Origin: Lachnospiraceae bacterium
Lineage (GTDB): Bacteria; Bacillota; Clostridia; Lachnospirales; Lachnospiraceae
Direction of reading: 5' to 3'
Assembly: GCA_910575775.1 (NCBI GenBank)
Contig: CAJTEY010000001.1
Coordinates: 62,001 to 126,000, forward strand
DNA: 64,000 nucleotides
Part shown: one piece after another, positions 38,057 to 57,746 of the stretch
Layout: every line of letters starts with the position of its first letter
How positions within the stretch are numbered: position 1 is the first letter of the stretch
Translations under genes and position numbers: made by a program
The notes under the pieces: generated by a model
Told to the model about the DNA's origin: nothing
Databases searched by the model: none
What the model saw: the letters and a program-made list of their open reading frames with translations, nothing else

Positions 38057-39391
38057 TTAAAACCGATTCAGGTACTCATTGATCTCCCAATCCGTAATCT
38101 GACTGCGGTAGCGGTTCCACTCCTCTTTTTTCTGTGTAATGTATTTCGTGAAAATATGCTCTCCCAGCGTGTCCTTCATAAACGAATCCTTTTCCATGCA
38201 TGACACAGCCTCGGCAAGCGTCCCCGGCAGCTTTTCCAGGTTCCGTTTACTCCGCTCCTGTTCGCTCATGCGAAAAATATTGCAGTCCACGCGCTCCGGC
38301 ACAGACACCTGTCTCCTGATTCCGTCCAGACCGGCCCTGAGAATCGCCGCAAGCGCCAGATAGGGATTAGCTGTCGGATCGGGACTGCGAAGCTCTATCC
38401 GCACCGCCTCCCCCCTGGCCGCTGGAATGCGGATCAGAGAACTTCTGTTGGTCGTGCTCCAGGCGATATATGCCGGCGCCTCAAAACCGGGGACAAGCCT
38501 TTTATAGGAATTTACAATCGGGTTCGTAACTGCCGTCATCCCGCGCATATGCTCCATTATCCCGCCAAGAAAAGCATATGCCTCACGGCTTAACCCATTT
38601 GCGTCCTTTTCCTCCGCAAAAATATTTCTGCCGTCTTTTGACAGGGACATATTGATATGCATGCCGGATCCGTTCACCCCATATTTGGGTTTTGGCATAA
38701 AGGTAGCATGAAGCCCGTGCCTTTTTGCGATGGTTCTGACCGCCAGACGAAATGTCATAATGTTGTCCGCTGTCGCTAACGCCTCGTCATACCGAAAGCT
38801 GATCTCATGCTGGGCCGGCGCCACATCGTGATGGGAAGCCTCCACCACAAATCCCATGTCTTCCAGCGTCAGCACCATATCCCGCCTTGCATTTTCTCCA
38901 AAATCCGCCGGTCCCACATCAAAGTATCCCGCCTTTTCATGGGTAAGCGTAGTCGGCATGCCGTTGTCATCCAGATGGAACAGGAAAAACTCGCACTCTG
39001 CTCCCACCCGGAACGTAAAGCCCATCTCTTCCGCCTCCCGGACCGCCCGCTTTAGGATATGACGGGGATCTCCTGCAAAAGGAGTTCTGTCGGGACGGTG
39101 CACATCACAGATCAGTCTGGCGACTTTTCCCTGCTGAGGTCTCCACGGAAAAATTTCCAGCGTGCTGTAATCGGGATGCAGATACATGTCCGACTCCTCC
39201 ACATCAGCAAAACCTTCAATTGAGGAACCATCAAACATGCAGTCGTTGTCAAGAGCTTTCTCAAGCTGGCCCGCCGTGATGGCCACATTTTTCAGATTTC
39301 CAAAAATATCTGTAAACTGGAGTCTGATAAATTCCACATCCTCCTCTTCGACCAGCTTCAAGATCTCTTCCCTGCTATAGTTTTTTCTCAT
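38057..39391 (-). CDS. glnA: Glutamine synthetase type I
   Basis: A 444-residue GS-I of the shorter (Bacillus/Clostridia) subtype that makes glutamine from glutamate, ammonia and ATP. The beta-grasp start EFIRLQFTDIFGNLKNVAI is followed by MFDGSSIEGFADVEESDM, the metal and glutamate sites GAECEFFLF and NGSGMHINMSL, and RIPAARGEAVRIELRSPDPTANPYL. No adenylylation Tyr loop of the long subtype is seen. Promoter at 39469-39498; the ANTAR regulator follows. Confidence 0.96.
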   Translation of the reverse strand: MRKNYSREEILKLVEEEDVEFIRLQFTDIFGNLKNVAITAGQLEKALDNDCMFDGSSIEGFADVEESDMYLHPDYSTLEIFPWRPQQGKVARLICDVHRPDRTPFAGDPRHILKRAVREAEEMGFTFRVGAECEFFLFHLDDNGMPTTLTHEKAGYFDVGPADFGENARRDMVLTLEDMGFVVEASHHDVAPAQHEISFRYDEALATADNIMTFRLAVRTIAKRHGLHATFMPKPKYGVNGSGMHINMSLSKDGRNIFAEEKDANGLSREAYAFLGGIMEHMRGMTAVTNPIVNSYKRLVPGFEAPAYIAWSTTNRSSLIRIPAARGEAVRIELRSPDPTANPYLALAAILRAGLDGIRRQVSVPERVDCNIFRMSEQERSKRNLEKLPGTLAEAVSCMEKDSFMKDTLGEHIFTKYITQKKEEWNRYRSQITDWEINEYLNRF

Positions 39392-39656: not shown

Positions 39657-40016
39657 GTTTAAATTCCACTCTGTTCCTATATCAACCCGCGTCACGGTAA
39701 CTGTCTAAGTCCTGTCTTGCGTTCTTTAAATTCCACTCTGTTCCTATATCAACGATGAGAAAGCAGTGTGAAAACTGCGCTGTTATGGACTTTAAATTCC
39801 ACTCTGTTCCTATATCAACTCAGTAATTTCAGCTTGTTTGACGGTTGCTACGAATCTTTAAATTCCACTCTGTTCCTATATCAACAGTCCACCGTTAGGT
39901 TTGCCGATTAGTTGGATAACCTTTAAATTCCACTCTGTTCCTATATCAACCTACCATTTGTCATATCGTTTGATGGCTGTTCCTCACTTTAAATTCCACT
40001 CTGTTCCTATATCAAC
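39657..40016 (-). CRISPR. Leader-distal half of a split type I-B CRISPR array (6 repeats)
   Basis: Six 30-base repeats start at 39657, 39724, 39790, 39856, 39921 and 39987. Read on the minus strand they begin GTTGATATAGG and end GGAATTTAAAG, a typical I-B form giving an ATTTAAAG 5' handle. The five spacers are 35-37 bases. The last repeat in the direction of transcription (39657) has a changed terminal base, as expected at the distal end. Beyond 40016 the next spacer is broken by the mobile element. No cas gene adjoins this half. Confidence 0.95.
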
Positions 40017-40101
40017 TGAAACAAAGGGGTATATTTAAAGAGGACGGAAAAAGTGTGAGTTTTTGAAAAGACCACCTTTTCCCCAAGCTGAAATCAGCTT
40101 T

Positions 40102-40130
40102 ATTATAGCGAGAAATGGAGGAATTTACAA
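40102..40130 (-). promoter_or_regulatory. Outward-facing promoter-like sequence at the left end of the element
   Basis: TTGTAA (40125-40130) and TATAAT (40102-40107) on the minus strand with a 17-base spacer. It points out of the element into the stranded CRISPR repeats, the first of which ends 86 bases away at 40016. Its -35 box overlaps the start codon of the recombinase gene, which is read the other way. If active, it would replace the lost leader promoter. Confidence 0.5.
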
Positions 40131-41899
40131 TGACGAACAGCGCAAAGATTACCGCCCTCTACGAAAGACTGTCACGAGATGATGAACAACAGGGCGAAAG
40201 CAACAGTATCATAAACCAAAAACAGTATTTAGAGGAATACGCAAAAAGACAGGGTTTTTCCAATATCCGGCATTTTACTTATGACGGCATATCCGGCACT
40301 ACTTTTGAGCGTGAGGGTTTTCAAAAACTGATAGCCGAGGTTGAAGCGGGCAATGTAAGCACAGTGATTGTAAAGGACATGAGCAGGCTAGGCAGGAATT
40401 ACTTAAAAGTCGGCTTTTACACAGACATCATGTTCCCCGAAAAGGGTGTGCGCTTCATAGCGGTAAACAACGGCGTAGACAGCGAAACAATGGGCGACAA
40501 CGATTTTACGCCGTTCCTAAACATTATGAACGAATGGTACGCAAAGGACACAAGCCAAAAGATACGGGCAATCTTCAAAGCCAAAATGCAGGAGGGGAAA
40601 CGTGTTTCCCCAAGCGTTCCCTATGGTTATCTGCGTGACCCGCAGGATAAGCAGCACCTAATCATTGACCCCGAACCCGCCGAGGTAGTGCGCCGGATAT
40701 ACCGGCTTGTGATTGAGGGCGTGGGTGTGTCAGCGATTGCAAGGCAGTTGACAGACGAGCGTGTCCTTATCCCGTCAGCCTATGCCGCCGAGCATTGCCC
40801 CGAAAACAACCATAGCAAAAGTTTTACAAGTCCTTACACATGGTCTAACACCGCCGTATGCTACATACTGGAAAAGCAGGAATACATGGGGCACACTGTT
40901 TTGGGAAAGACCGTCCTTGAAAGTTTTAAGACCAAGAAAAGGCGTAAGGCGAAACCCGAAGAACTGATGATATTCCCCAACACCCACGAAGCAATCATTG
41001 ACGAGGAAACATGGAATACCGCACAGAAAGCGAGAAAGACAATCCGTAAGGAAGTGCCAAACGGCACATATACGAACCGTCTAACAGGACTGCTTTACTG
41101 CGCCGACTGCGGACACAGAATGTACTACCGAAGCCCACAGTCACAGCACAGGGCGAACGGAAAAATCTACGACAGCGACAATCTTTATACCTGCGGCAAC
41201 TACCGCAACATACACAGGCAATGCACCGCCCACAGCGTGAAAGTGTCGGCAGTTGAGAGCCTTATCGCTGTTTCCATTCGTGAGGTATGCGGCTTTGCGC
41301 TGGAGCATGAGGAAGAATTTCTCAATACAGTGCGTGAAATGGACGACAAGGAAAGCGAGCGCATCATAACAGACAGCCGGAATGAGAAACGCACCGCCGC
41401 AAAACGGATTGACGAACTTAACGACCTCATCAAGAAACTGTACGAGGGCAACGCAACGGGGAAGATACCCGACAGGCACTTTACAAGGCTTCTTGCGGAC
41501 TATGACAGCGAATTAAGCACCCTTGAAGCGAGGACGGAAGAACTTGACAACATCATAGCACAGGGCAAGGAAAACGAGATAAGGACAGACAAATTCATGC
41601 GGCTTGTGAAGAAATACAGTGAGTTTGACGAAATCACAACCCCCATGCTGAACGAATTTATAGACAGAGTGCTAATACATGAGCCAGTGTACGGGGAAAA
41701 AAGAAGCCACAGGACACAGGAAATTGAGATACATTTCAACTTTATCGGCAAAATCGGACTGCCAAATGTAAGCGAGCCTGTCGATTGGGAAAAAATCGAG
41801 CAGGAAAAGGAAAAGGCAAGGAAAGAACGCAAGAAACAGTATGACAAGGAGCGCAGGGCAAGATTAAAGGCAGAAGCCGCACTCCGAGAAGCGATTTAG
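40130..41899 (+). CDS. tnpX: Large serine recombinase (TnpX/TndX type)
   Basis: A 589-residue site-specific recombinase that excises and inserts the element. The catalytic serine is Ser15 in ALYERLSRDDEQ, and the resolvase domain spans ~1-150 with VIVKDMSRLGRNYLKVG. A recombinase domain (~165-290) follows, then a zinc ribbon (LLYCADCGHRMYY with later Cys in YTCGNY and CTAH) and a coiled-coil C-terminus. The ATG at 40130 has GGAGG eight bases upstream. Homologues in Tn4451 and Tn5397 cut at GA dinucleotides, which fits the junctions proposed here. Confidence 0.95.
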   Translation: MTNSAKITALYERLSRDDEQQGESNSIINQKQYLEEYAKRQGFSNIRHFTYDGISGTTFEREGFQKLIAEVEAGNVSTVIVKDMSRLGRNYLKVGFYTDIMFPEKGVRFIAVNNGVDSETMGDNDFTPFLNIMNEWYAKDTSQKIRAIFKAKMQEGKRVSPSVPYGYLRDPQDKQHLIIDPEPAEVVRRIYRLVIEGVGVSAIARQLTDERVLIPSAYAAEHCPENNHSKSFTSPYTWSNTAVCYILEKQEYMGHTVLGKTVLESFKTKKRRKAKPEELMIFPNTHEAIIDEETWNTAQKARKTIRKEVPNGTYTNRLTGLLYCADCGHRMYYRSPQSQHRANGKIYDSDNLYTCGNYRNIHRQCTAHSVKVSAVESLIAVSIREVCGFALEHEEEFLNTVREMDDKESERIITDSRNEKRTAAKRIDELNDLIKKLYEGNATGKIPDRHFTRLLADYDSELSTLEARTEELDNIIAQGKENEIRTDKFMRLVKKYSEFDEITTPMLNEFIDRVLIHEPVYGEKRSHRTQEIEIHFNFIGKIGLPNVSEPVDWEKIEQEKEKARKERKKQYDKERRARLKAEAALREAI

Positions 41900-42016
41900 A
41901 CAACAGAATATCATTGAGTGGGAAAGACTGCGGCGTTTGTTGCGGTCTTTTCGTTTTTCCTAACCGAACAGGGAAAACGAAGCACAGAACCCACAGGAAA
42001 GGAGGACACCAAGACC

Positions 42017-42292
42017 ATGAAACTGTTAAAATGCGAACAGGAAGTGCATATCAGCTTTTGCGCTGATGAAACCACCGCCACCCTCTACACGTCCTATCCG
42101 GCGTGGATAAGGAAAATGGATAAACTTGTGGAAAAGAACCCGCAGGACTTCCAGTGCATAGCGCAGACCGCCGCCGGAAAGACCTACGCCATGCCGAGGA
42201 ACTTTGTCAGCATACGAACCAAAGAGCGCACAGTGACCTTGACCGAGGAACAGAAAGCACAGGCTACAAAGCGTCTGCATGGTACGGGGTAA
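42017..42292 (+). CDS. Small mobile-element protein of unknown function
   Basis: A 91-residue protein. The sequence VHISFCADETTATLYTSYPAWIRKMDKLVEKNPQ (in parts) is of a kind seen on many clostridial integrative elements and prophages, with a conserved Y-T-S-x-P-x-W-I-R-K core. Function is not known to me. The ATG at 42017 is preceded by AGGAGG; the open frame back to 41918 lacks a site. It lies between the recombinase and the RepA-like gene. Confidence 0.6.
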   Translation: MKLLKCEQEVHISFCADETTATLYTSYPAWIRKMDKLVEKNPQDFQCIAQTAAGKTYAMPRNFVSIRTKERTVTLTEEQKAQATKRLHGTG

Positions 42293-42439
42293 GGTTGTGC
42301 CGATACGGGCGTTTCAGCCTTTAAATCTGCTATCCCAACAGGGGAAACGCAGAGCCGAACCGCAAAAGGGTATTCTTCTTTACCCGCACATGGGAACGGC
42401 AGGAAAACGCTACTCAAACAGGGAAAGGAGAAAGGGAAA

Positions 42440-42805
42440 ATGCCGTTTGATTACTTCTACGGGAAACAGGGCGAACAGCACGCCTTTTACCGCATACCGA
42501 AGCTGCTGTTTACCGACAGCCGCTTTCAGACGCTTTCCACAGACGCAAAACTGCTCTATGGTATGCTGATTGACCGCATGGAACTGTCACTGAAAAACGG
42601 GTGGATTGATGAACAGGGGCGCATATACCTCTACTTCACGATTGGCGAGATACAGGGGCGTTTCCGTTGTGCAAGCGGCAAGGCGGTCAGACTGCTTGCG
42701 GAACTTGACAGCGCAAAAGGAATAGGACTAATCGAGAGCGTAAGACAGGGAATGGGAAAACCAAACATTATCTACGTCAAGAACTTTGCCACCGACACCG
42801 ACTAG
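42440..42805 (+). CDS. RepA_N-domain replication initiator, truncated
   Basis: A 121-residue protein covering only the N-terminal DNA-binding domain of RepA_N initiators: FYRIPKLLFTDSRFQTLST, AKLLYGMLIDRMELS, then GKAVRLLAELDSAKGIGLIE and KPNIIYVKNF. Related proteins are usually well over 200 residues. Here a stop follows the domain, and the downstream sequence still reads as a broken linker (LNCENRNS, then a stop, then IAIIEIQKK). The gene is therefore likely shortened from a full initiator. Three tandem repeats at 42889-42955 lie where RepA_N origins usually sit, inside the rep gene. Confidence 0.75.
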   Translation: MPFDYFYGKQGEQHAFYRIPKLLFTDSRFQTLSTDAKLLYGMLIDRMELSLKNGWIDEQGRIYLYFTIGEIQGRFRCASGKAVRLLAELDSAKGIGLIESVRQGMGKPNIIYVKNFATDTD

Positions 42806-42888
42806 GGAGGGGAAGGAAAGGAAGGGAAAGGATTGATTGATATGATAAGTATGACTATAATCAGTCTGAATAATATCAGTATTATTAG

Positions 42889-42955
42889 ATTGCGAAAATC
42901 GAAATTCTTGAATTGCGAAAATCGAAACTCTTGAATTGCGATAATCGAAATTCAG
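42889..42955 (+). repeat. Three tandem 23-bp repeats, iteron-like, after the RepA_N domain
   Basis: Units at 42889-42911, 42912-42934 and 42935-42955 share ATTGCGAAAATCGAAA with one or two changes; the third is two bases short. They fall in the former rep coding region. RepA_N plasmids carry their origin iterons in that part of the gene, so an origin or its relic is inferred. The wider gap 42806-43057 holds no other gene. Confidence 0.6.
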
Positions 42956-43057
42956 AAAAAAGCGGGGATAATGCAGAATGAAAGTCTGGGAATGCAGTTA
43001 AAAAACATAACAGAATCCCAGACTTTGAATCTGCTGAATGGATTTGATAAATAAAAT

Positions 43058-43288
43058 TTACTGCTTTTCGGGTGGATAGAAAACAAGCAAATCTTCTATG
43101 CCACACTCCAAGACAGTACAGAGTTTGCATAAAACAAATACATCTAAGCGAGTAATGCTGTTGGTACAGTAATTATCAATCTGTTTCCAGTTCATTTCTG
43201 CCTTGTGCGACAGCTTATTTTTACTCAACCCTTTTTCCTTTAGCAATTCATTCAGCCGGATTTCCATGTGACCATAATTATCTTCCAC
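43058..43288 (-). CDS. Xre-family HTH regulator (copy 1)
   Basis: A 76-residue Cro/CI-type helix-turn-helix protein: EIRLNELLKEKGLSKNKLSHKAEMNWKQIDNYC. It would act as a small repressor. A GTG at 43288 with GAGGT six bases upstream is the best start; ATG at 43267 is the other choice. It is a clear paralogue of the next gene, 43428-43676, and the sequence upstream is duplicated as well. Both are on the strand opposite to the neighbouring element genes. Confidence 0.75.
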   Translation of the reverse strand: MEDNYGHMEIRLNELLKEKGLSKNKLSHKAEMNWKQIDNYCTNSITRLDVFVLCKLCTVLECGIEDLLVFYPPEKQ

Positions 43289-43427
43289 TTTTCCACCTCT
43301 GCAATTAGTATTCTTGTAGGTTTTAAACAATTTAATTCTATATTTGTTGTAGAGTCTTGGTAATCCTAAACAAGTATTAGAACACTAAATGCAGAAACAT
43401 ACGTTTTTTCTTGGGCGTGTAAATGCC

Positions 43428-43676
43428 CTATCCGTCCGGCTTATTATCAGCAGGAATAAATAATAATAAGTCTTGGATATTACACTCTAAAGCTGTACAT
43501 AGTTTGCATAAAACAAATATGTCAAGGCGGGAAATATCGTTGTCACAATATCTATCTACTTGTTTCCAGTTCATTGCCGCCTTGATAGACACTTGATTTC
43601 TGTTAAGTCCTCTGTCCTTTATCAGTTCAGACAAACGTATTTTTAACTGTCCATATTCTTTATCCAGTTTGTCCAT
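43428..43676 (-). CDS. Xre-family HTH regulator (copy 2)
   Basis: An 82-residue HTH protein, paralogous to copy 1: KIRLSELIKDRGLNRNQVSIKAAMNWKQVDRYC aligns along its length, as do LDIFVLCKLCTALECNIQDLL and LDVFVLCKLCTVLECGIEDLL. The ATG at 43676 has GGAG nine bases upstream. It is divergent from the small gene at 43815, and a TTGTTG-16-TATAAC promoter-like pair lies upstream. It probably regulates the adjacent module of the element. Confidence 0.78.
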   Translation of the reverse strand: MDKLDKEYGQLKIRLSELIKDRGLNRNQVSIKAAMNWKQVDRYCDNDISRLDIFVLCKLCTALECNIQDLLLFIPADNKPDG

Positions 43677-43814
43677 TTTTGTCATCTCCTGTCGATAAAT
43701 TAAAATCTGTTTTTCTTGCAATTCTATTTTAAACTTGTTATAGTGTTTTTGTAATCTGCAACAAGTATTATAATACTAGTAATAGAAACATATGTTTTCA
43801 AAGAAAGGAGAAGA

Positions 43815-44009
43815 ATGAAAACGAGGAACAAAAAACTTGATTACCTCAAAGATAAAGTTTTTGATTTACTGAACGACGCAGATGAGATAGGAATAAGGGA
43901 CATTGAAACAAATGATAAAAAAGGCATATTCACAGTTTTGCTTCAAGACGGAAATATATTTGAAGTCGAGTGCCGCAAGGTAGAAGATTATGGGAGGAAC
44001 TATGGATAA
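43815..44009 (+). CDS. Small hypothetical protein
   Basis: A 64-residue charged protein with a beta-rich end (GIFTVLLQDGNIFEVECRKV). No family recognised. AAAGGAG precedes the ATG at good spacing. Its stop overlaps the start of the next gene by 8 bases, so the two are translationally coupled. It lies opposite the Xre regulators and could be under their control. Confidence 0.65.
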   Translation: MKTRNKKLDYLKDKVFDLLNDADEIGIRDIETNDKKGIFTVLLQDGNIFEVECRKVEDYGRNYG

Positions 44010-44388
44010 AGCCAAAACATATATTACAGACGAGGAAATAATAAACTGTCAAAAGGTCGCAGACACATTTTCTGAACTGTTCGACAATGAGGGGTTAATT
44101 ATCCTTAATGCCGGTAAATACGGTTTTGTTAAATTGCAATATTTTAAGTTCCCTTTTGGCTTTGATACTATGGACAGCTATTATAACAGCAAAAGTCTGT
44201 TTGATGACCTTTGGGACGAATGGTTACATACACAGCTTATCAATCTGTCATCAGACACACCTATGGCGGATATGGATTATGACGACATACTAAAATGTCT
44301 GCCGGAAGAAAAGCGAAAAGAACTTTTAGACAAACGATTTTATTTTGCTGAAAAGACGGGAGTTGACAATTTGCTTGTGGAACTTTAA
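44002..44388 (+). CDS. Hypothetical protein of the mobile element
   Basis: A 128-residue acidic protein starting at the ATG at 44002 (GGGAGG six bases upstream). Features seen are EEIINCQKVADTFSELFDNEGLIILNAGKYGFVKL (in parts) and a C-terminal helix with LPEEKRKELLDKRF. No family recognised. It is AT-richer than the recombinase and relaxase genes, suggesting a separate origin as cargo. It is coupled to the small gene before it. Confidence 0.7.
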   Translation: MDKAKTYITDEEIINCQKVADTFSELFDNEGLIILNAGKYGFVKLQYFKFPFGFDTMDSYYNSKSLFDDLWDEWLHTQLINLSSDTPMADMDYDDILKCLPEEKRKELLDKRFYFAEKTGVDNLLVEL

Positions 44389-44414
44389 CAGGATTTTGCA
44401 AAGGGAGTACAAAC

Positions 44415-44702
44415 ATGAGAAAAACAAATACAAAGAGTTTGTTAGAATTACTTGCAAGGATAAGGACGATTAAAGCCTTAGACAGAGCCGCAAAAATAGA
44501 CAGCTATTACCGCGCCACGCTGAAAGAGCAGAACATGGCATATAGTGAACTGGAAAAAGCCGGACTGGATAGGAAGCAAAAACGTATTGTTGATAAAGTA
44601 TTTACTGCCATAAATGCAAACGGGGCGGCATACGGAAAGGTTGCTTACAAATTAGGATTGCATGACGGCATACGGCTTATGTCGGAAGTGAATAAAATCT
44701 AA
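44415..44702 (+). CDS. Hypothetical helical protein of the mobile element
   Basis: A 95-residue basic, helical protein (LLELLARIRTIKALDRAAKID, then AYSELEKAGLDRKQKRIVDK) preceded by AAAGGGAG. The C-terminal AYGKVAYKLGLHDGIRLMSE is of a kind seen in small phage and element proteins. Function unknown. It closes the AT-rich block 43815-44702. Confidence 0.65.
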   Translation: MRKTNTKSLLELLARIRTIKALDRAAKIDSYYRATLKEQNMAYSELEKAGLDRKQKRIVDKVFTAINANGAAYGKVAYKLGLHDGIRLMSEVNKI

Positions 44703-44816
44703 CCACCAAAAATTGAATAGTTGCGTATCTGAAAAAGACATTTTCAAACTAGAAGATGTCTTTTTCTTTTACACAAATATCCTACAAACAGCCACAGCAC
44801 AGAAAGGAGGGAACGC

Positions 44817-45089
44817 ATGGGGAACATCAACGAGCAGATTGCAAAAGCAGAGGAAGAAATACGGCAGTTGCAGAACAGGAAGAAAAAACTGCTCAACCAG
44901 AAAAAGAGCGAGGAACGCAAGATAAGGACGCACCGCCTTGTAGAGCGTGGGGCGATACTGGAAAGCCTGTTGGAACAGCCGGAACAGTACACAAACGAGC
45001 AGATAAAAGGCTTGCTTGAAACCGCTTTGCAGACACCACAGGCGCAGGAATTTTTACGCCGGACGCAAAAGCCAAAGGGGGAGAATTAA
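44817..45089 (+). CDS. DUF3847-type protein next to the relaxase
   Basis: A 90-residue protein with a coiled-coil start (INEQIAKAEEEIRQLQNRKK) and RTHRLVERGAILESLL. This is the DUF3847 type, usually found just before mobA in Firmicutes elements; it may help the relaxosome. It starts after AGGAGG. Two small hairpins follow at 45078-45110. Confidence 0.75.
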   Translation: MGNINEQIAKAEEEIRQLQNRKKKLLNQKKSEERKIRTHRLVERGAILESLLEQPEQYTNEQIKGLLETALQTPQAQEFLRRTQKPKGEN

Positions 45090-45218
45090 ATCTCCCTTGT
45101 TTCAGACAAGGGCGCACTTATACACCGTTCCGGTGCGTGCGCTCTCCGAGGGCTCTTGCAGAGGGCATTGTCTGTCTTGCGACAGCCAACAGGGGAAACG
45201 ACTATTCCCCTACGGGCG

Positions 45219-45285
45219 TACCGCCCTACCCCTTAGTGTACTTTGCGTACAGGCACACCCCAAAGTGCGGGGCGTGCCTGTCCAC
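45219..45285 (+). other. Candidate oriT upstream of the relaxase
   Basis: The gap between the DUF3847 and relaxase genes holds two inverted repeats. GGGCG/CGCCC lies near 45224-45235. A longer stem, ACAGGCACaCCCC (45249-45261), pairs with GGGGcGTGCCTGT (45269-45281) over a 7-base loop. Position directly upstream of mobA and the hairpin followed by an AT-rich stretch are typical of oriT. The nick site is not identified. Confidence 0.5.
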
Positions 45286-45323
45286 AAAGTTTAAAATGTG
45301 CCACCCGAAAGGAGGCTGAAAGC

Positions 45324-46820
45324 GTGGCGATTTACCATTGCACTATCAATATATTCAGCCGAGGGGCGGAAAGCCAACTGTCAGCGGTTGGTTCAGCCGC
45401 TTACCGAAGCGGGGAAAAAATCACAAACGAGTATGACGGGATTACCCATGACTATACGAGGAAAAAGGGCATTGTGCATACAGAGATACTACTGCCGCCC
45501 CACGCCCCGCCCGAATTTGCAGACCGTTCCACCCTTTGGAACTCCGTTGAGAAAATCGAGAAAGCAAAGAACTCACAGCTTGCAAGGGAGATTGAAGCCG
45601 CACTCCCAAGAGAGCTTGACAGGGAACAGCAGATACGGCTTGTGCGTGAGTATGTGCAGGACAACTTTGTGTCTGCCGGAATGTGTGCGGACATAGCTAT
45701 CCATGACAAGAACAACGGAAACCCGCACGCCCACATCATGCTAACCATGCGACCACTGGAACAGTCCGGCGAATGGGGCGCGAAATCAAAAAAGGAATAC
45801 ATCTTAGACAAAAACGGTCAGCGGATAAAACTAAAAAGCGGGAATTACAAAGTAAGAAAGATTGACCTTATGGACTGGAATGACAAAGGCAAAGCCGAAG
45901 TGTGGCGGCGGGCATGGGCAGACGTTACGAACAAGTACCTTGCGGAGCAGAATATCCCGCAGAGGATAGACCACCGTTCCTACGAGCGACAGGGCATAGA
46001 ACAGATACCGACCGTACACATGGGCGTAGCCGCTACCCAAATGGAGCGCAAGGGCATTGTGACCGAGAAAGGCGAGAAAAACCGTCAGATAAGGGAACAG
46101 AACAGGCTGTTGAAAGAAGTCAAACGCCGGATTGCCGGACTGGAAAAATGGGTAAAGGAAAAGTCGGCAGAAAAAGACAGCCAATCCATCAATCCATTCC
46201 ATTCCGTTCCTATCCATTCCCCACAGCCGCCCACACTCCTTGAACTGCTGAATACCGCCATGCAACAGGCAGGACAGCCAGACAGCCGTTACGGGAAAAT
46301 ACGGGATTTGAAAACCTTTGCAAAGGCGGTCAGCTTCTTACAGGTCAATAACATTTCCACCCTGTCCGAGTTGCAGGAAACGCTATCGAAAATGAAAAAA
46401 CGGTACTGGAATACCAACAGCGAGATAAAGCAGACAGAAAAGCTACTCCATGAGCGAAAAGAACTGATAGACCAAGCGGAAAACTATCTCCAGTATCGGG
46501 ATTACCACAAGGCATACAAACAGACCAAGCCGAAAAAGCAGGAGGATTATGCGGAACGCTACCGCACCGAACTTGCACTGTATGACCGAGCGGAAAGGTA
46601 TCTGAAAGAGCATTTAGGGAGCGACACCAAGCTAAGACCGAAAGCGTGGAAAGCTGAGGTTGCAGACCTAACCGCACAGAAAGACCGCCTTTATCGGGAA
46701 ATGCGCAAGCTGAAAGATGAAGTTGCTGAAGCTGAAACCGTCAAGCGTTGTGTAGAGCAGGCAATACCGCCGACAGAGCAGAGAAAGGAGAGGTCAAAGG
46801 CGCATGATATGTCATTATAA
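45324..46820 (+). CDS. MobA/MobL-family relaxase
   Basis: A 498-residue relaxase that would nick oriT and lead the strand to a recipient through a helper conjugation system. VAIYHCTINIFSRGAESQLSAVGSAAYRSG is the family start (given here in parts as a landmark). NPHAHIMLTMRPL carries the metal-binding H-x-H. The C-terminal half is basic and helical. GTG at 45324 with AAAGGAGG eight bases upstream is the start; the longer ATG frame from 45243 runs through the candidate oriT. It corresponds to tnpZ/mob of Tn4451-like elements. Confidence 0.93.
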   Translation: MAIYHCTINIFSRGAESQLSAVGSAAYRSGEKITNEYDGITHDYTRKKGIVHTEILLPPHAPPEFADRSTLWNSVEKIEKAKNSQLAREIEAALPRELDREQQIRLVREYVQDNFVSAGMCADIAIHDKNNGNPHAHIMLTMRPLEQSGEWGAKSKKEYILDKNGQRIKLKSGNYKVRKIDLMDWNDKGKAEVWRRAWADVTNKYLAEQNIPQRIDHRSYERQGIEQIPTVHMGVAATQMERKGIVTEKGEKNRQIREQNRLLKEVKRRIAGLEKWVKEKSAEKDSQSINPFHSVPIHSPQPPTLLELLNTAMQQAGQPDSRYGKIRDLKTFAKAVSFLQVNNISTLSELQETLSKMKKRYWNTNSEIKQTEKLLHERKELIDQAENYLQYRDYHKAYKQTKPKKQEDYAERYRTELALYDRAERYLKEHLGSDTKLRPKAWKAEVADLTAQKDRLYREMRKLKDEVAEAETVKRCVEQAIPPTEQRKERSKAHDMSL

Positions 46821-47054
46821 AGTGAATCTTGGATGGAAATATATTAAAATATTCATTTTCTGACCGATAAATAATATGAGTATAAAGTGAGATAGTGGAT
46901 AATTACAAAGTAAATCATTCAGTTACGCATATCTATATTTGTGGAAAGTGTGTGAAAGGGGGTAATCAGATTTATATAAAACAAGAAAGATAACACAACA
47001 TATTGATATGCGAGGCTGATTAGATATTTTAACTATAGAAAGGATGAGTGAAAA

Positions 47055-47522
47055 ATGAAAAAATTCAAAAAGTTATTAAGTGTTATGTTGGTTAGTACGT
47101 TGTTGGTTGCTAATGTTATTCCTGTAAGTGCTGCGGAAATACAACCGCGTGATGCGGCTCCTGCATTGACACAGTTTTATGTGTATTCCGTATCTTCTGA
47201 AAAAGGTGGAACAGAAGTTATTCAACGTTCGGGGTCATTTGCGCAGGTTGGTACAACATTGGATCACGGCGGGACTTGGTTGGAAGTTGAAACGATTGAG
47301 ATCGGGTATGCAAAAACACGCTCAGCCACTCTTAACAGCACTAATATGACCTTGAAATCTAAAAAAGCGATAGACCTTGATAATGATCGTATAATCGATG
47401 GATGGGCTTGCGTTTGGAGATATGAGAACAGCTATGGTTTTGAAGCCGGAACATTTAAGGCTAGTTCCAAATCTGCAAATTCACCGTGGAATACAATGAA
47501 TATTACTTTTTATATACATTAA
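47055..47522 (+). CDS. Secreted protein of unknown function (cargo)
   Basis: A 155-residue protein with a clear signal peptide: KKFKK, then a hydrophobic core LLSVMLVSTLLVANVIPVS and a cleavage site near SAAE (residues ~27-30). The mature part (~125 residues) is rich in Thr, Ser and Gly with aromatic residues and looks beta-structured. No family recognised. GAAAGGATGAG precedes the ATG. Preceding bases 46821-47054 are AT-rich, with no gene. It lies 20 bases before a second unknown gene and is clearly AT-richer than the transfer genes. Confidence 0.75.
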   Translation: MKKFKKLLSVMLVSTLLVANVIPVSAAEIQPRDAAPALTQFYVYSVSSEKGGTEVIQRSGSFAQVGTTLDHGGTWLEVETIEIGYAKTRSATLNSTNMTLKSKKAIDLDNDRIIDGWACVWRYENSYGFEAGTFKASSKSANSPWNTMNITFYIH

Positions 47523-47542
47523 GCTGTATGGGGGTAGCGTAT

Positions 47543-48106
47543 ATGCAGGTTAATTCTAATTATCGGCAGAATATCATATCATACGAAAATATGCAGAAAA
47601 GTAACGGGACTCCTACATTTGCACAATATGTAACCGAAAAGAATGAAGAACGGCTTCGAGATGAAGCGGCAACGGATTTTGAGGAACGTGTGCTACAGAG
47701 TGCTGGACCGAATGCTCCACAATCTGTAAAAGATGCTTGGATGGAGACAGTGAAAGAAGTTGGAGTAAACGGATTGGGTGAAACTAAGAATGGACGGACT
47801 CATATAACAGATATGCACATACAGCAAATTATAGCCCATTATTACGGGTTGTCGAATAGTACGGACATTTTGGGTAATTCCGTGGAGTCTGCAATGCGGG
47901 CTACTCAAAAAGCTTTATATGATTTTGACCATCCTCTAGAACCTAATCGGGTTATAAGTATTGAAGAACAACAGGCACTTGTAAAGGAAAGGCAGTTTTA
48001 TGTATCTTTTCTGGAAAAATTGGAAAAGCTTCTGACAGGGAATAAGGAGCAAAATGGAACAGACTTGTACGGCGCAATCAACAGAGGTCTTTTGCGTAGT
48101 AAATAA
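47543..48106 (+). CDS. Cytoplasmic protein of unknown function (cargo)
   Basis: A 187-residue soluble helical protein without signal peptide. The ATG at 47543 has GGGGGT seven bases upstream; 47528 is an alternative. Features seen are KDAWMETVKEVGVNGLG, HITDMHIQQIIAHYYGLSN and a C-terminal coiled-coil-like helix. No family recognised. It directly follows the secreted protein and is closed by a terminator at 48135-48172, so the two form one cargo unit, perhaps secreted effector and partner. Confidence 0.7.
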   Translation: MQVNSNYRQNIISYENMQKSNGTPTFAQYVTEKNEERLRDEAATDFEERVLQSAGPNAPQSVKDAWMETVKEVGVNGLGETKNGRTHITDMHIQQIIAHYYGLSNSTDILGNSVESAMRATQKALYDFDHPLEPNRVISIEEQQALVKERQFYVSFLEKLEKLLTGNKEQNGTDLYGAINRGLLRSK

Positions 48107-48134
48107 TTTTGTTGTGCGTAAATTGTTACGGGAG

Positions 48135-48172
48135 TATGCACCATGTGAAGATTAGCATGGTGCATATTTTTT
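48135..48172 (+). terminator. Rho-independent terminator of the cargo unit
   Basis: TATGCACCATG (48135-48145) pairs perfectly with CATGGTGCATA (48156-48166) around a 10-base loop, then a run of T (48167-48172). The minus strand has no U-run after the stem, so it should act only on plus-strand transcripts. Confidence 0.88.
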
Positions 48173-48221
48173 GCCCAAAGTTAGAAAAAGAACGTTCTAC
48201 AAAGTACCGTTTTCTGTAGCG

Positions 48222-48495
48222 TCAGCACTGAACTTGTACCCAACGCCTACCTAACACCGTTTTCAGATAAGTCGGGTTTTTACAATCCGGCCCAATCCGA
48301 GTAAGGCGCACATCTCTCCTATCCCGCAACACCCTGCGCTGATGTTGCAGTATTTCCACCTTGAAAGGACAATACAGGCAAGGAAACAGGTTGTTGTTCC
48401 GCTTCAATCTGTAATTCGTCTGCTAAGAGGGAAACCGCCCTCTTAAAGATTGTTTCCTCACTGTCCGAAAACGTCAGCACTATCATTTTTCCCAT
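48222..48495 (-). pseudogene. Frameshifted winged-helix (OmpR-type C-terminal) regulator remnant
   Basis: The ATG at 48495 (GAGG eight bases upstream) opens MGKMIVLTFSDSEETIFKRA and runs to VLSFQG, where the frame goes to a quick stop at 48319. Near 48362 another frame takes over with VEILQHQRRVLRDRRDVRLTRI, matching the start of a response-regulator DNA-binding domain (usually GLE-x6-RRV-x-RDG-x-EVRLT). The rest of the winged helix is missing. A frameshift and a 3' loss are the simplest explanation. Confidence 0.6.
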
Positions 48496-48692
48496 GCTTA
48501 TTACCTCTCTTATCCGTTGCATTGATACAACATTTTTTCTGCCCTGTTTACCTTTATTTGACAGTAAGCAACAAGTATATATGCCGGAAACCGCAATGTC
48601 AATTTCATGCGGATAAGGGAACAGACAGCCACTAACAACAGCGGGCGTATGGAGATTACTCTGTATGCCCTCTTTTCATGTAAAGGAGATTT

Positions 48693-48872
48693 ATGTATAT
48701 GCCAAAAAATAATGAGAACCAACAGGCACAGGAACGCCGACCGCACTTTGTAAAGACCATAGGCAGAACGACCTACTTTGTGACGTGCCACTTTAGCGAA
48801 ACAAGCAGAGAAACCTTGCAGGATAAGCTAAAACGCATGATTGTACGGGATATTCAGAGTGGAAATTATTAA
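48693..48872 (+). CDS. tnpW: TnpW-type transposon protein
   Basis: A 59-residue protein, too short for common gene-length cut-offs. The sequence PHFVKTIGRTTYFVTCHFSE with the C-terminal helix TLQDKLKRMIVRDI is the TnpW type found at the right end of Tn4451-like elements. Its function is unknown. AAAGGAG precedes the ATG at 48693, and a second in-frame ATG lies at 48699. It is the last gene before the right end and supports the element class. Confidence 0.8.
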   Translation: MYMPKNNENQQAQERRPHFVKTIGRTTYFVTCHFSETSRETLQDKLKRMIVRDIQSGNY

Positions 48873-48942
48873 ATTTCATGTTCACACTTTTTTTGTCTTG
48901 ACGGCACAGACGATAATGGCACAGTAGATGTAGAAAACTTTC

Positions 48943-49170
48943 CTTTAAATTCCACTCTGTTCCTATATCAACTTTGAGGGTATCTGTGGAGTGAAGAGTA
49001 ATACCAACCTTTAAATTCCACTCTGTTCCTATATCAACGTGAAAAGGTGGAGTCTGTAATGAAGGATTTCACATCTTTAAATTCCACTCTGTTCCTATAT
49101 CAACGAATTAGCAAATGAGTTAAACGAAGTAATGTCACACCTTTAAATTCCACTCTGTTCCTATATCAAC
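48943..49170 (-). CRISPR. Leader-proximal half of the split CRISPR array (4 repeats)
   Basis: Four repeats of the same 30-base sequence as the distal half lie at 48943-48972, 49009-49038, 49075-49104 and 49141-49170, with three spacers of exactly 36 bases. The repeat at 49141-49170 abuts the leader. Past 48943 the next spacer ends after 8-10 bases and the mobile element begins. On the minus strand this half is the newest and the only part still joined to the leader promoter. Confidence 0.96.
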
Positions 49171-49356
49171 CCCACACAAAATATCCTCCCACCCATTCAC
49201 GTCCAGCACTGCCTCTTTTGTCCACCTCCCGGCAAACGATAATATTCCCACATTAATTTATCATAAATACTTCCCGCTATGCCCCTGCACCCCAGACCAC
49301 TTCTTCCCTTGTCAACCCCCTGCGATTTTTGCGCCATTACCAGTCGACAGAATCCG
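49171..49356 (-). promoter_or_regulatory. CRISPR leader
   Basis: The 186 bases between cas2 and the first repeat on the minus strand act as leader by position. They should hold the array promoter and the Cas1-Cas2 integration signals. TTGACA occurs at 49310-49315, but a -10 box at the right distance is not clear. No gene is seen here. Confidence 0.7.
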
Positions 49357-49635
49357 TTACAAAAAGAAACTGGTCTTATCCTCGTCTTTTCCCCAAAACT
49401 CTTTGTCCAGCCACTTTTCCTGGCGGCTTTTAAAAATAATAACGGAATCTTCCCCTTTATCAATATAGGGCTTCAATTCCTGCTGCAGTTTTACTAGTTG
49501 AACTTTAGAGATCTCTCCCTCAAAAACAGAATTTTGAATATGCGTCAAATACTTTTTACAAGTTTTGAACACATGAGACCAGCGCCTTTGTCCGTTGTTA
49601 TTCTGGCTGATATCATATACTAACACCACATACAT
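49357..49635 (-). CDS. cas2: CRISPR-associated endoribonuclease Cas2
   Basis: A 92-residue Cas2. MYVVLVYDISQNNNGQRRW holds the conserved first-strand Asp (YDIS), and the ferredoxin-like fold continues in YLTHIQNSVFEGEIS. With Cas1 it captures and integrates new spacers. It lies 3 bases after cas1 and next to the leader. Confidence 0.96.
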   Translation of the reverse strand: MYVVLVYDISQNNNGQRRWSHVFKTCKKYLTHIQNSVFEGEISKVQLVKLQQELKPYIDKGEDSVIIFKSRQEKWLDKEFWGKDEDKTSFFL

Positions 49636-49638
49636 ATC

Positions 49639-50631
49639 TTACCACCATATTTTAAACCCTTCATATTCCTTTTCACCAATCAAATGCTTGGTCAATTTAT
49701 ATGCCTCAAGGCGCATAAGGTATTGGTAACTGACCTGCCGCCCGAGTTCCTTATGCATAATTGTCTTCTTTAGCCGTTCTTCTAATTCCTTTGCAATCAG
49801 CCCGGAAGTCTCCTTGGTAAGATGCAGGAAATTTAATTCTTTGGTAAAGCTGTCCTCTGTAATCTGCCGGCGGTTCAACAAAGAAAAAATCAACCTGTCG
49901 CCGACAAGCGGCTTAAACACTTCTGCAATATCAAGGCAGAGCGAAAATCTTCTGACTCCCGGTTCATGCAAATAGCTGATCGTTGGATTTAGCTGTGTAT
50001 GGTATATTTCCGTCAGAACTTTCGCATAAATCATGGAATTAACAAAGGAGATCAACGAATTTATCATATTATCCGGCGGGTGCATCACTCTCTTTTCAAA
50101 GTGAATCTCCTGATCCACAATCACATTCCACGCTGCATAATAGTGTTTTCTGATATTTCCCTCTATTCCCATCAATTCCTGTATGGAATTTGTATCAGGT
50201 ATTTTCCTTCGCAAGTCATCCACTTCCGACATATACGCGGAGACATCTTTGCCCCGCCCATTATAATACCGAAGATTTCTATATATGTTATCTGCCGCCG
50301 CTTCAATAAATTTTCTGGCAATCACGATTCTTTTACCATAATCGGAATAGTGCTCAACCTGCTTTACCAAAAGCTGCCCGGCCAGCAGCTTTTCTTTTGG
50401 ATAAAAACTCCCCGTGTAAAAATTATAATAGTTAAAAAAATGAATGGGAATGCCATACTGCGATATATAACTGATAAAAGCAGTATTGAAGGTCATTTCC
50501 GACATCACATAAATATCATCAATCCGTTCTATCGGAATATCTCTCTTTTCCCCTTCACATGGCGTAAATTGCAGTGTATTGTCTTTTCTTTTCAAATCAC
50601 CGTTATTGTAAACATAAAAACTCTGTCCCAT
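49639..50631 (-). CDS. cas1: CRISPR-associated endonuclease Cas1 (type I-B)
   Basis: A 330-residue Cas1, the metal-dependent integrase for new spacers. SFYVYNNGDLKRKDNTLQF opens the beta-rich domain. The catalytic residues lie in the helical part (ELMGIEGNIRKHYYAAW carries the conserved Glu; LHEPGVRRFSLCLDIAEVFKPLV carries His and Asp). The sequence type fits I-B Cas1. Confidence 0.96.
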   Translation of the reverse strand: MGQSFYVYNNGDLKRKDNTLQFTPCEGEKRDIPIERIDDIYVMSEMTFNTAFISYISQYGIPIHFFNYYNFYTGSFYPKEKLLAGQLLVKQVEHYSDYGKRIVIARKFIEAAADNIYRNLRYYNGRGKDVSAYMSEVDDLRRKIPDTNSIQELMGIEGNIRKHYYAAWNVIVDQEIHFEKRVMHPPDNMINSLISFVNSMIYAKVLTEIYHTQLNPTISYLHEPGVRRFSLCLDIAEVFKPLVGDRLIFSLLNRRQITEDSFTKELNFLHLTKETSGLIAKELEERLKKTIMHKELGRQVSYQYLMRLEAYKLTKHLIGEKEYEGFKIWW

Positions 50632-50677
50632 ATCTCTCCCCTCATGGTATACTTCTATGACTTATCGCAAAGTCTGC

Positions 50678-51172
50678 TCAAATCACACAAAGATCGTAAT
50701 AAGCACATTTCGCACATATTTTCCCTTTGGAGAACTCAGGCGGCAGCATTTGCTCCTTCATGGCATGAATATCACCCATGATCCGTTCTATCTGCGCTTC
50801 ATCTTCCTGCGTCAATTCAACCATAAGATTTTTCTTCAAGAGAGGATAATCAATTTTTGCCTTTAATCCGTCTACGCCTCTTTGCTTCAGATAATACAAA
50901 TAGTATTTTACCTGCCAGACGCCTGCCTCCTCTATCGCCCTGCTCTTCTTCACTTCATGGAGTTCTTTATGTTCTTTGATAAAGTCAATATTAATCACAT
51001 TATCAATATTAATGTGTTTCTCTCCTCTCTGGTAGCTACTTTCATCCAATAATTTCCCCAGCATGACATTTTCGTTTTCTGCCTCCATACTGATTTCATG
51101 GATAAAGTACCACAGTTTTCTCTTGCACACAAAATAATAGTAAATCATCACTCCTGTGATCCGCTCTTCCAT
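50678..51172 (-). CDS. cas4: CRISPR-associated exonuclease Cas4
   Basis: A 164-residue Cas4 nuclease with an Fe-S site. The first Cys is in YYYFVCKRKLWYF and the last cluster is ICAKCAYYDLC. ELHEVKKSRAIEE includes the nuclease E-x-K core. It trims prespacers and checks PAMs. The ATG at 51172 follows GAGGGG closely. It lies between cas3 and cas1. Confidence 0.94.
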   Translation of the reverse strand: MEERITGVMIYYYFVCKRKLWYFIHEISMEAENENVMLGKLLDESSYQRGEKHINIDNVINIDFIKEHKELHEVKKSRAIEEAGVWQVKYYLYYLKQRGVDGLKAKIDYPLLKKNLMVELTQEDEAQIERIMGDIHAMKEQMLPPEFSKGKICAKCAYYDLCVI

Positions 51173-51188
51173 CTTCCCCTCACTCTTT

Positions 51189-53516
51189 CTATACAAAAAT
51201 AGGGTCTTCTACTTTATCAAACTTTTTTGCACGGAATCCTATCCGTTCATCATAATCACAATCTATGACAGCTATCTTTTCATAAGTTCCAATCTGCACA
51301 GGAGGGCAAGGCTTTGCCGACAGGCCCTTACGGACAGCCTTCTCATACTCCTCCACAATATAGTTCTGCACAGGAACAGTGTACTGCATCATACGATTGC
51401 GCTCTTTGATCCGCTCAAGCATACCTGTATGGGAAGAACGTATCTTCCTGGCGCCATCCTCAATTTCCTGTTGGCAGGATTCGTACACGGATACCGGGAT
51501 CACATCTTTTGTAAAAATATCCTCTCTTATTCTGATTTCATTGCGGTCCACTTCATACCATTCAATATCTTTAAGTCTTTCCATCTGTTTTCTGTACTTT
51601 TGCATATAGTTTGTACCCAACAGTCTCTCTGTCGTAAAGTATGTTTCCATCATCCCTATTTTACATCCCTCAGAAAGCATACCTTCCTTCTCCTGCCTCA
51701 GCGTTTCTTCCAAAGCCAGTTTGGACAATTCAAAGATATCTCCGTCAATAAAAGCTGCATTGCCTCCTTTCTGCCCTCTTCCCGAAACAATGGGGCGTTC
51801 TAAATATTTATCCTCTATCTCGGTATAGACAAAACAGTTATAGTCCTGGACTGCCTTTTTCCCTTTCCGATTCACCCTTCCCATTCTCTGCAGTAAGGAC
51901 GGAATATCCTGTAGTTCCGTGAACAGATAATCAAAGTCAATATCAAGACTCGCTTCCACAAGCGATGTGCTGATCCAGATGACTGTGTCCTCATGTTCAC
52001 TCTTCCCACACTCACAAATCATCGTTTCTTTCCTGGCCCTGTCCCGATGTATAAACTTAGAATGGAGCAGGTGGATTTTGTCTTCCTGTTCTTCCCCGAT
52101 CTGTTCACACAATTCCTCATACATCCTCTGTGCCTTTTTTATGGTATTGCAGATAACAAGTATCTTACCGCCTTTCCAAAACAGTTCGCGTATCGCTTCC
52201 GTATCCATCAACGCCGGCACACACTTCACTTTATGGCGTATCTGCTCTCTATCGCAAAATACGGCATATTCAAACATTCCGACCTCTTCTTCGATCCGCT
52301 CTCTCACAAAAGGCGCAAGCGTGGCCGTTGTAATGGCGATCCTGCCTCCCAGTTCCCGAATCATCTTTAATCCGAAAATCAGATCTGCCAGCAGATCCGC
52401 ACCATACATCTGAATCTCATCAATCACGATTTTTGAGTACGACAGTGTTGCAAGCTTCAACTCATAAGTCTGGTATTGAAAAATGAAGTCAAACAGTTGA
52501 TCTACCGTTGAGATGGTAAGCGGCATGGCAAGCTGCCTGCTGCGATTGTGATACGCAATCACATCCATCTCCTGGTAAACACTGCCGCCTGCACTTTTCC
52601 CTTTCTGCGCATCTTTCTCCTGCTGCTCCAACAGCCGGGACACCGCATCCGAATGTAAAAGACCGAGTTGTTTCTCTACGCCGTCACCACTCCCATCATT
52701 GATAATCTCTTCTCTTATCCGATCGTACATTTTGTTAATTGCCGTCTTCACCGGCAGAAAAATAAAGCCTTTATGATCCCCGATCCATAACAATGCCGCC
52801 TCTGTCTTGCCCATCCCGGTCTGCCCTGCGACCATGATATTTTTATCCTGTCTTTCCAGGCAGAACCGCTGCATCTCATTCAGCGAATATCCTTTTCTCC
52901 CGAAAAACTGTTTCGTTTTACGAAGCAGGAAATCATTTTTATATTCAATTTCCACATCGCCGCTGGCCGCATAATCACATTTATGCAAAAGACCCTTGAC
53001 CAGTATCATCTTATCTTTTATCGCCGCCTGTGCAATGTAACTTTTGATCGTTTTTATTGCTCTCCTGCCCGGATGAGCGGCGCACTTCCACTGCGCCAGC
53101 AGTTTTTCCGCAAGCTCCCGTTTCTCCCGATCTTCCAGCAGCCAGAACACATCCCCGTAATCGTGATGAAATCCCACCGCAAACAGGACGATATAGTACG
53201 CCGCTGAAGAATCTCTTGGCATCAGATACATGGACAGGACGTTGTGAGGGATCTCCTGATCCGGGTCAAACTTAAGCTCCGCATGTTCAAGTCTCTCCTG
53301 CATCCTTGGATTGGCTTTCCCCAGATCATGGTACTTGCACGCCATGCACAACAATTCGTATATATCCCGATCAATATAATGCAGTTCGAAAAGCGCTTTC
53401 GCCCGTTCTGACAGTGCGCGATTGTGCTCCGCTATCGTCACACCGCCGCTTTTAGCCATCTGCCTCGTCATCTCTGCGCTTTCCAGTTCAAACAAATCTT
53501 TTGCTGTTTCTTTCAT
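51189..53516 (-). CDS. cas3: CRISPR-associated helicase/nuclease Cas3
   Basis: A 775-residue protein with an N-terminal HD nuclease (CKYHDLGKANPRMQ) and a superfamily-2 helicase: Walker A MVAGQTGMGKTEAALL, DExH-type IDEIQMYG and C-terminal motif VI QRMGRVNRKGK. It unwinds and degrades DNA bound by Cascade. All key motifs are intact, so it should be active. It follows cas5 by 17 bases. Confidence 0.95.
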   Translation of the reverse strand: MKETAKDLFELESAEMTRQMAKSGGVTIAEHNRALSERAKALFELHYIDRDIYELLCMACKYHDLGKANPRMQERLEHAELKFDPDQEIPHNVLSMYLMPRDSSAAYYIVLFAVGFHHDYGDVFWLLEDREKRELAEKLLAQWKCAAHPGRRAIKTIKSYIAQAAIKDKMILVKGLLHKCDYAASGDVEIEYKNDFLLRKTKQFFGRKGYSLNEMQRFCLERQDKNIMVAGQTGMGKTEAALLWIGDHKGFIFLPVKTAINKMYDRIREEIINDGSGDGVEKQLGLLHSDAVSRLLEQQEKDAQKGKSAGGSVYQEMDVIAYHNRSRQLAMPLTISTVDQLFDFIFQYQTYELKLATLSYSKIVIDEIQMYGADLLADLIFGLKMIRELGGRIAITTATLAPFVRERIEEEVGMFEYAVFCDREQIRHKVKCVPALMDTEAIRELFWKGGKILVICNTIKKAQRMYEELCEQIGEEQEDKIHLLHSKFIHRDRARKETMICECGKSEHEDTVIWISTSLVEASLDIDFDYLFTELQDIPSLLQRMGRVNRKGKKAVQDYNCFVYTEIEDKYLERPIVSGRGQKGGNAAFIDGDIFELSKLALEETLRQEKEGMLSEGCKIGMMETYFTTERLLGTNYMQKYRKQMERLKDIEWYEVDRNEIRIREDIFTKDVIPVSVYESCQQEIEDGARKIRSSHTGMLERIKERNRMMQYTVPVQNYIVEEYEKAVRKGLSAKPCPPVQIGTYEKIAVIDCDYDERIGFRAKKFDKVEDPIFV

Positions 53517-53533
53517 GCAGCCTTACCTTTTCC

Positions 53534-54631: not shown

Positions 54632-54653
54632 CCGCACACCTTCTTCCTGTTTC

Positions 54654-55535: not shown

Positions 55536-55547
55536 AAGTCCTCTCCT

Positions 55548-57005: not shown

Positions 57006-57008
57006 TCT

Positions 57009-57746
57009 TCATCCCTCCTCCACAATATCAAGCATACCAAAGCCTATACTTCTTCTCGAGCAGGCCCCATTCTGATAAAAATACTGCAGGATTCTGTTTT
57101 CCCCGGACACCGTAAAATCTGCAATCGTCGCATCCAGATAGATCCCGTAATGCTTCACCACCACTTTCCTGCCTGTCACACAATGCAGTCTGATGCTCCC
57201 CACCGACGTTTCCGAAAACCCTGCCATCTCTGCCTGGGTTTTCAGCGCCTGCTCCAGTTTTTCCGGGTATCCTTCATCCTCACAGCTGTAATATATATCT
57301 TTATTGGAATCTCTGTCGTGTTCCCTCACTACAAGCGATGAACCCGGCATCGTGGTAAATCTGACAGTCATTCCCCTGATCTCTTTCTGATCCAGCTGAA
57401 CAATATTTTTTAGCATGATAAAATTGCCCTCTTCCGCCGGGTATTTTCTATTTTTCTGGTTCAAAAACGCCAGCATCAAATACATACCGGTCTGCTTCCC
57501 GTCATCTGTCGAAAAGACCAGAGAAAATTTGTTGTCTGCGAACTGGAACTTCTCTTTCGTAAAGCGCGGCTTACTGACAATCATTGTCCACGAAAAATCT
57601 TTCGTATGGGTGTCCGTGTAATAACGGTCCAGTAAATTCCCGTTTACAGACTGTGATAATGCGTTCTTTATGAAACTCAATACATATCGCCGATAATCAG
57701 CGTTTAACTCCGACTGACCAGTTATGAAATCAAGTTTGAACCGCAT
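57009..57746 (-). CDS. cas6: CRISPR-associated endoribonuclease Cas6
   Basis: A 245-residue RAMP nuclease that cuts the pre-crRNA in each repeat. The C-terminal glycine-rich loop CSRRSIGFGMLDIVEEG is the family signature. The catalytic His is not certain; candidates lie in the N-terminal third. It is the first gene of the operon, with a promoter at 57862-57890 and a GGCGGGAT-like site. Confidence 0.9.
   Translation of the reverse strand: MRFKLDFITGQSELNADYRRYVLSFIKNALSQSVNGNLLDRYYTDTHTKDFSWTMIVSKPRFTKEKFQFADNKFSLVFSTDDGKQTGMYLMLAFLNQKNRKYPAEEGNFIMLKNIVQLDQKEIRGMTVRFTTMPGSSLVVREHDRDSNKDIYYSCEDEGYPEKLEQALKTQAEMAGFSETSVGSIRLHCVTGRKVVVKHYGIYLDATIADFTVSGENRILQYFYQNGACSRRSIGFGMLDIVEEG

Follow-up and report, generated by a model that had tools for sequence, protein, structure and literature searches.

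A CRISPR array divided within one spacer by a mobilizable element related to those found in coupling-protein genes

Why an array of CRISPRs (clustered regularly interspaced short palindromic repeats) should be found in two parts, with a mobilizable element between them, is the question raised by a 64,000-nucleotide stretch of the genome of a Lachnospiraceae bacterium (GenBank assembly GCA_910575775.1, contig CAJTEY010000001.1, positions 62,001 to 126,000), referred to here as the window. We consider it very probable that a continuous subtype I-B array was split by one site-specific insertion of an element of the type found in coupling-protein genes, with a spacer used as secondary attachment site. 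Positions are those of the window, and the features are listed in Table 1.

The 30-base repeat, CTTTAAATTCCACTCTGTTCCTATATCAAC, is present in ten copies that are in register, six to the left of the element and four to the right, and repeat starts are 65–67 bases apart throughout, with a single gap of 8,956 bases. A search of the whole assembly (4.88 Mb, 176 contigs) allowing up to two mismatches found exactly ten copies, at one locus and on one strand, and the reversed pattern, used as a control, gave no matches in the genome. Nine of the ten are identical, and the one mismatch is in the copy at 39657–39686, which is the last repeat and hence matches expectation for the distal end of an array. 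All eight cas genes lie to the right of the element and make up a complete subtype I-B set (Cas8b/Csx8, Cas7b, Cas5b, Cas3, Cas6 and Cas1-2-4). As they are on the minus strand, the array is read on that strand from a leader located between cas2 and the first repeat and similar, by eye, to the leader of a relative (G004). Three whole spacers are leader-proximal, five are leader-distal and one further spacer is split; spacers in the array are 35–37 bases long. The original prediction had described two arrays of one repeat, with six and four copies, about 8.9 kb between them coding for a recombinase, a relaxase and TnpW, cas genes and leader on the right side only, and three whole spacers on the leader side with five stranded. 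The whole-genome count, the domains identified (PF14202 in the case of TnpW), the position of the cas genes and leader and the spacer counts agree with this description, to which the split spacer is added.

Table 1. Features of the divided CRISPR locus and of the element within it
Feature	Position	Strand	Basis
Glutamine synthetase gene, presumed glnA type, neighbour of array distal end	38057..39391	-	
Stranded leader-distal array half, 6 repeats + 5 whole spacers	39657..40016	-	
Left 12 bases of split spacer, ending in GG (40027-40028)	40017..40028		junction comparison with L017-L020, L050
Mobilizable element	40027..48917	+	ends from junction comparison with relatives
Large serine recombinase (Resolvase, Recombinase, zinc ribbon, DUF4368)	40115..41899	+	Pfam
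RepA_N-type replication initiator domain	42440..42805	+	Pfam
Small Cro/C1-type (HTH_26) regulator	43058..43330	-	Pfam
Second small HTH_26 regulator	43428..43721	-	Pfam
DUF3847 protein	44817..45089	+	Pfam
MobA/MobL (MobQ) relaxase	45321..46820	+	Pfam
Cargo: DUF4879 domain protein, N-terminal signal-like stretch by eye	47055..47522	+	
Open reading frame, 187 aa, sub-threshold family matches only	47543..48106	+	
TnpW (PF14202, E 8.9e-13)	48693..48872	+	Pfam
Second GG crossover copy	48918..48919		
Right 23 bases of split spacer	48920..48942		
Leader-proximal array half, 4 repeats + 3 whole spacers	48943..49170	-	
Leader	49171..49356	-	position; by-eye likeness to G004
cas6-cas8b(Csx8)-cas7-cas5-cas3-cas4-cas1-cas2, subtype I-B	49357..57746	-	

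The element is 8,891 bp long when one GG is counted, and the GG crossover shared by its two junctions constitutes a 2-bp direct repeat. The left flank up to the GG is TGAAACAAAGGG and the right flank is CACAGTAGATGTAGAAAACTTTC. Joined, they make 35 bases, which is within one base of every other spacer except the longest (37), and the shared GG places the break inside one spacer. The motif ACTGA..C.AAGGGCACAGT....GTAGA in this spacer resembles the usual coupling-gene site of the element's relatives, where V-T-D-P-K-G-T-V is encoded.

That usual site was evident from other genomes. The same element is found in Lachnospiraceae bacterium 10-1 (L020), with 99.97 % identity over 8,904 aligned bases and three differences, two within the element (40280 and 48917) and one in the flank (48923). 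Position 48917, directly beside the GG crossover, is T in the window, A in L020 and G in L018, another relative. In L020, the element interrupts a VirD4/TraG coupling-protein gene that encodes a Walker A motif; V-V-T-D-P-K-G is encoded ahead of the insertion and T-V-V-L-E-C-G beyond it, and the reading frame of this gene identifies the GG of the glycine codon as the crossover. Relatives of the recombinase, 79 taken from the best 80 of 257 matches, were compared, and the rates that follow are valid for these only. In 47 of the 79, the recombinase is immediately preceded by the N-terminal part of a coupling gene, which ends at most 3 residues from the site and 42–145 bases from the recombinase match (396 in L050, where a run of N intervenes); in 17 relatives the C-terminal part is also present at the far end of the element. 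D-P is encoded in all 47 of these flanks and GG is at the core position in 43. The other 32 relatives do not have the N-terminal part, and four of these have <200 bases before the recombinase match, so the insertion site is poorly readable there. The near-identical copy in L020 and the 47 relatives at a coupling gene together identify the element in the window as, by descent, a member of a traG-targeting serine-recombinase family, despite its unusual location. Matches to PF02534 in 60 genomes of the family include many coupling-gene pieces broken at profile positions ~80–96, which suggests that coupling genes in the family are often interrupted here. A short coupling-gene N-terminal piece (profile positions 44–83) beside recombinase-like matches at 3091–4803 of contig C29 in the bacterium's own genome (G000) is probably due to another element occupying the cognate site.

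The likeness of the spacer to the coupling-gene site was quantified using a score, in bits, derived from cognate flanks, 43 on the left and 17 on the right. Four of the 47 left flanks were omitted (L050, containing N, and L074, L075 and L079, without GG there) and all 17 right flanks were kept; the right end of L019 was seen, with an ambiguous core, and was not scored, and that of L024 was not identified. The joined spacer site scores 15.8, or 15.6 with L018 and L020 removed from the training set, and cognate sites with both sides score 31.6–43.9. On both strands of the intact window all positions are below 15.8, the highest after the element's own right junction being 3.4. Scores of 15.8 or more occur at 17 of the 2.45 million positions in the relatives' loci, every one an element junction or a coupling site with GAYCCNAA. 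Only two coupling genes exceed 15.8 in the 412 kb of the bacterium's own genome that were sampled (next best 12.0), and of 175 spacers of the genus, each scored between two copies of the window's repeat, the one ranking after the split spacer reached only -2.6. The right half of the spacer site, at 11.5, is inside the cognate range of 9.9–17.5. Given this resemblance, the split spacer most likely served as a secondary site.

The CRISPR loci of relatives are also consistent with a single original array. The repeat was found, within three mismatches, in four of the 77 genomes of the genus, this one included. In G075 an array of 28 repeats directly abuts the same glutamine synthetase gene (88 % identical), and in G004 a piece with 33 repeats is followed by this gene (78 %) and a second contig has cas1-cas2 (95 % and 90 %) ahead of a piece with 44 repeats. 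The name glnA is one that we presume for this gene by resemblance. The recombinase, used as query in five fetched stretches of the relatives' array loci, gave no match. Thus, the claim that the element landed in one pre-existing array was upheld by the near-identical copy elsewhere, the array abutting glnA in relatives and the correct length of the joined spacer.

A number of observations weigh against this explanation. The score was trained on a conserved gene and hence measures likeness to traG rather than the preference of the recombinase. The left half of the spacer site scores only 4.3, compared with 15.1–27.8 for cognate sites and -31 to 9.1 for off-target relatives, and the right halves of the three off-target relatives with both sides read are as low as -12.5, -9.8 and -22.4, indicating that a cognate right half is not always needed by the family. 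The cognate-like right half of the spacer may be due either to luck, to a better fit of this particular recombinase or to an origin in a coupling gene. Contigs C7 and C4 of the same genome carry unoccupied cognate sites (40.4 and 39.1, respectively), so the element seems to have bypassed a better target; C8 has a third coupling gene, which is more distant. The original prediction had also proposed comparison with strains lacking the element, and though this revealed the array next to glnA in G004 and G075, the G004 locus breaks inside the array and that of G075 starts in the array with the leader side missing, so neither displays a whole empty locus on one contig. An empty copy of the split spacer was not found, allowing three mismatches, in any of 397 genomes, which included no second strain of the species.

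The cognate-like right half raises the question of whether the split spacer was itself captured from the coupling-protein gene of a conjugative element, so that the array came to hold a copy of the mobilizable element's attachment site. In frame, the spacer reads E-T-K-G-T-V-D-V-E-N-F where the coupling gene has D-P-K-G-T-V-V-L-E-C-G, and the low right halves of the off-target relatives mean that the choice made by the recombinase does not by itself obviously demand such a right half. However, where the spacer has E-T all 47 flanks have D-P, and where it has F all 17 have G. Each of the 20 motif rows obtained from other coupling genes contains DPKG, with neither TKGT nor ENF in any of them, in a search whose pattern required D and which an E variant would escape. 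Nor was a protospacer found in plasmids (two weak partial matches to the joined spacer), in viral contigs (no matches to two exact 21–24 base seeds of the split spacer) or in the 397 genomes. We regard capture as unlikely; if it did occur, and this is equally doubtful, a memory would have been the doorway for a parasite of the conjugative element, and the insertion would have destroyed that same memory. Other spacer searches were likewise unrewarding. Exact 21–24 base seeds of five whole spacers (s7, s8 and s9 not among them) had no matches in viral contigs, and the left array half gave only weak matches to phages and plasmids. The 175 spacers showed no closer matches to the element and the relatives' loci than shuffled controls did (best identity 0.75 in each case), and a short-word search of the relatives' spacers against the same sequences gave five weak partial matches. 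The notion that the element belongs to the class of DNA that this locus should block was, therefore, not borne out.

Recognition of the CRISPR repeat by the recombinase, making arrays a preferred target, appears very improbable. Six of the 34 scored bases do belong to the repeat, but the crossover is 10–12 bases inside the spacer, the 174 other spacers with a repeat on both sides reach -2.6 at most, and a simple detector applied to 119 loci found no other array at a junction, the only arrays being those at this locus (L111), at the relatives' CRISPR loci (L142–L146) and in L087. The last, at L087:4583–5390, has 36-base repeats and is ~4.6 kb from a related recombinase. Of the earlier claim that a defence locus was used as a landing site, the insertion in the array stands, but the target was one spacer resembling a coupling site and not the array as such. 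Still less credible is a chimera of assembly or binning, by which an element common in the gut would have been placed in the array. In its favour are the division of the genome into 176 contigs and the near-identity of the element to one in another organism; yet both junctions are at true element ends with the shared GG, the rejoined spacer has the correct length and the flanks are from the same locus as in relatives, and a chance join would not produce this. Two separate arrays flanking an unrelated, fixed gene block, the case named in the original prediction as its refutation, can be all but dismissed, as no evidence in favour was found and the near-unchanged copy in an unrelated gene in L020 contradicts it, as do flanks that join to form one whole spacer, cas genes on one side only and the array abutting glnA in two relatives.

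With the split, the ends of the element, the two-base crossover, the usual target of the relatives and the likeness of spacer to target all apparent from the sequences compared, the following course of events may be proposed for a site-specific insertion. The ancestral order would have been cas genes, leader, array and glnA, with one continuous subtype I-B array. A circular form of the element, mobilized with its own relaxase, may have entered by direct transfer, and its large serine recombinase presumably crossed over at the GG within one spacer, which would then be lost as a memory. A transcript from the leader would run through three spacers and then into the element, and the five distal spacers, cut off from the leader, would have their expression reduced or lost. 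As direct CRISPR repeats flank the element, it could also be lost by homologous recombination between them. At the left end of the element, on the minus strand (40102–40130), the promoter-like stretch TTGTAA-17-TATAAT points out into the stranded half and can also be seen in L017, L018, L020 and L050. Expression of the five distal spacers could be maintained by this stretch, which is a consensus match only, of a kind found 36 times in the region against 17.8 expected.

Pfam searches of the open reading frames of the element (excluding those shorter than ~60 aa, apart from TnpW) identified no type IV secretion family and no phage structural or lysis genes, and the whole element had no match when searched against plasmids and phages. 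Three 23-base direct repeats just 3' of the RepA_N gene (42872–42953) are iteron-like, and the excised circle may replicate. The circle junction made by joining the ends of L020 or L018 includes TTGACG-17-TATATT, which, judged by its match to the consensus, would be a promoter present only in the circular form; at the other joined junctions the best promoter match has a 15-base spacing in 10 of 15 cases. A similar promoter is, we assume, formed when the ends of Tn4451 are joined. Scattered pieces 78–97 % identical to the element, at 8561–9228 and 32537–32839 of contig C33 in the bacterium's own genome, are probably from a decayed relative. Elsewhere in the window, 59638–60743 consists of tandem repeats and has open frames on either strand, including a threonine/proline-rich one.

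At this locus, the cutting of an adaptive-immunity array by a conjugation hitch-hiker can be followed to the base. The general idea is that, since spacers sample short foreign DNA at random, chance alone can place attachment sites for integrating elements in an array, which may also acquire them via capture from the usual target gene of an element. The two internal differences from the copy in another genome make the element recent in transfer terms, and the event and its effect on distal spacer expression should be amenable to experiment. Insertions of mobilizable elements in traG have been published before, as have those of prophages and insertion sequence (IS) elements in CRISPR loci. In the literature on interrupted arrays and on mobilizable elements in arrays, covered with little of the subscription literature, no mobilizable element in a spacer was found. 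The new point would be that the split spacer mimics the coupling-gene site of the element.

Judged by its features, one of the closest counterparts is Tn6104 of Clostridioides difficile, which has a TnpX-related large serine recombinase, a 2-bp direct repeat and a mobA/mobL gene (PMC3158075) and is usually found at an internal site of traG in Tn5252-type elements (PMC5704250). The element described here shares the large serine recombinase at one end, the MobQ relaxase, the 2-bp direct repeat and traG as the usual target, but this copy is inside a CRISPR spacer and has other cargo. Streptococcal integrative and mobilizable elements (IMEs), namely IME_Sco1050_traG_site1/site2 and class IME_5, also combine a serine integrase with a MobQ relaxase and lie within traG (PMC5357655, PMC5704250); they differ in host group and from the target of this copy. 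Elements of the Tn4451/Tn4453 type share the serine recombinase, the 2-bp crossover and TnpW, but Tn4451 uses a GA crossover at numerous sites (PMC5704250), whereas the core here is GG and there is one main target gene. Integration of prophages into CRISPR loci is reported for Streptococcus pyogenes (Varble 2021), which is comparable in that an integrating element is within a CRISPR locus, though there it is a phage and here a mobilizable element in a spacer. Finally, ISC1359 was inserted into a spacer of Sulfolobus solfataricus under experimental selection (PMC4390879), and this too is mobile DNA inside one spacer, but it is an IS element, not one with a site-specific serine recombinase and a look-alike site as here.

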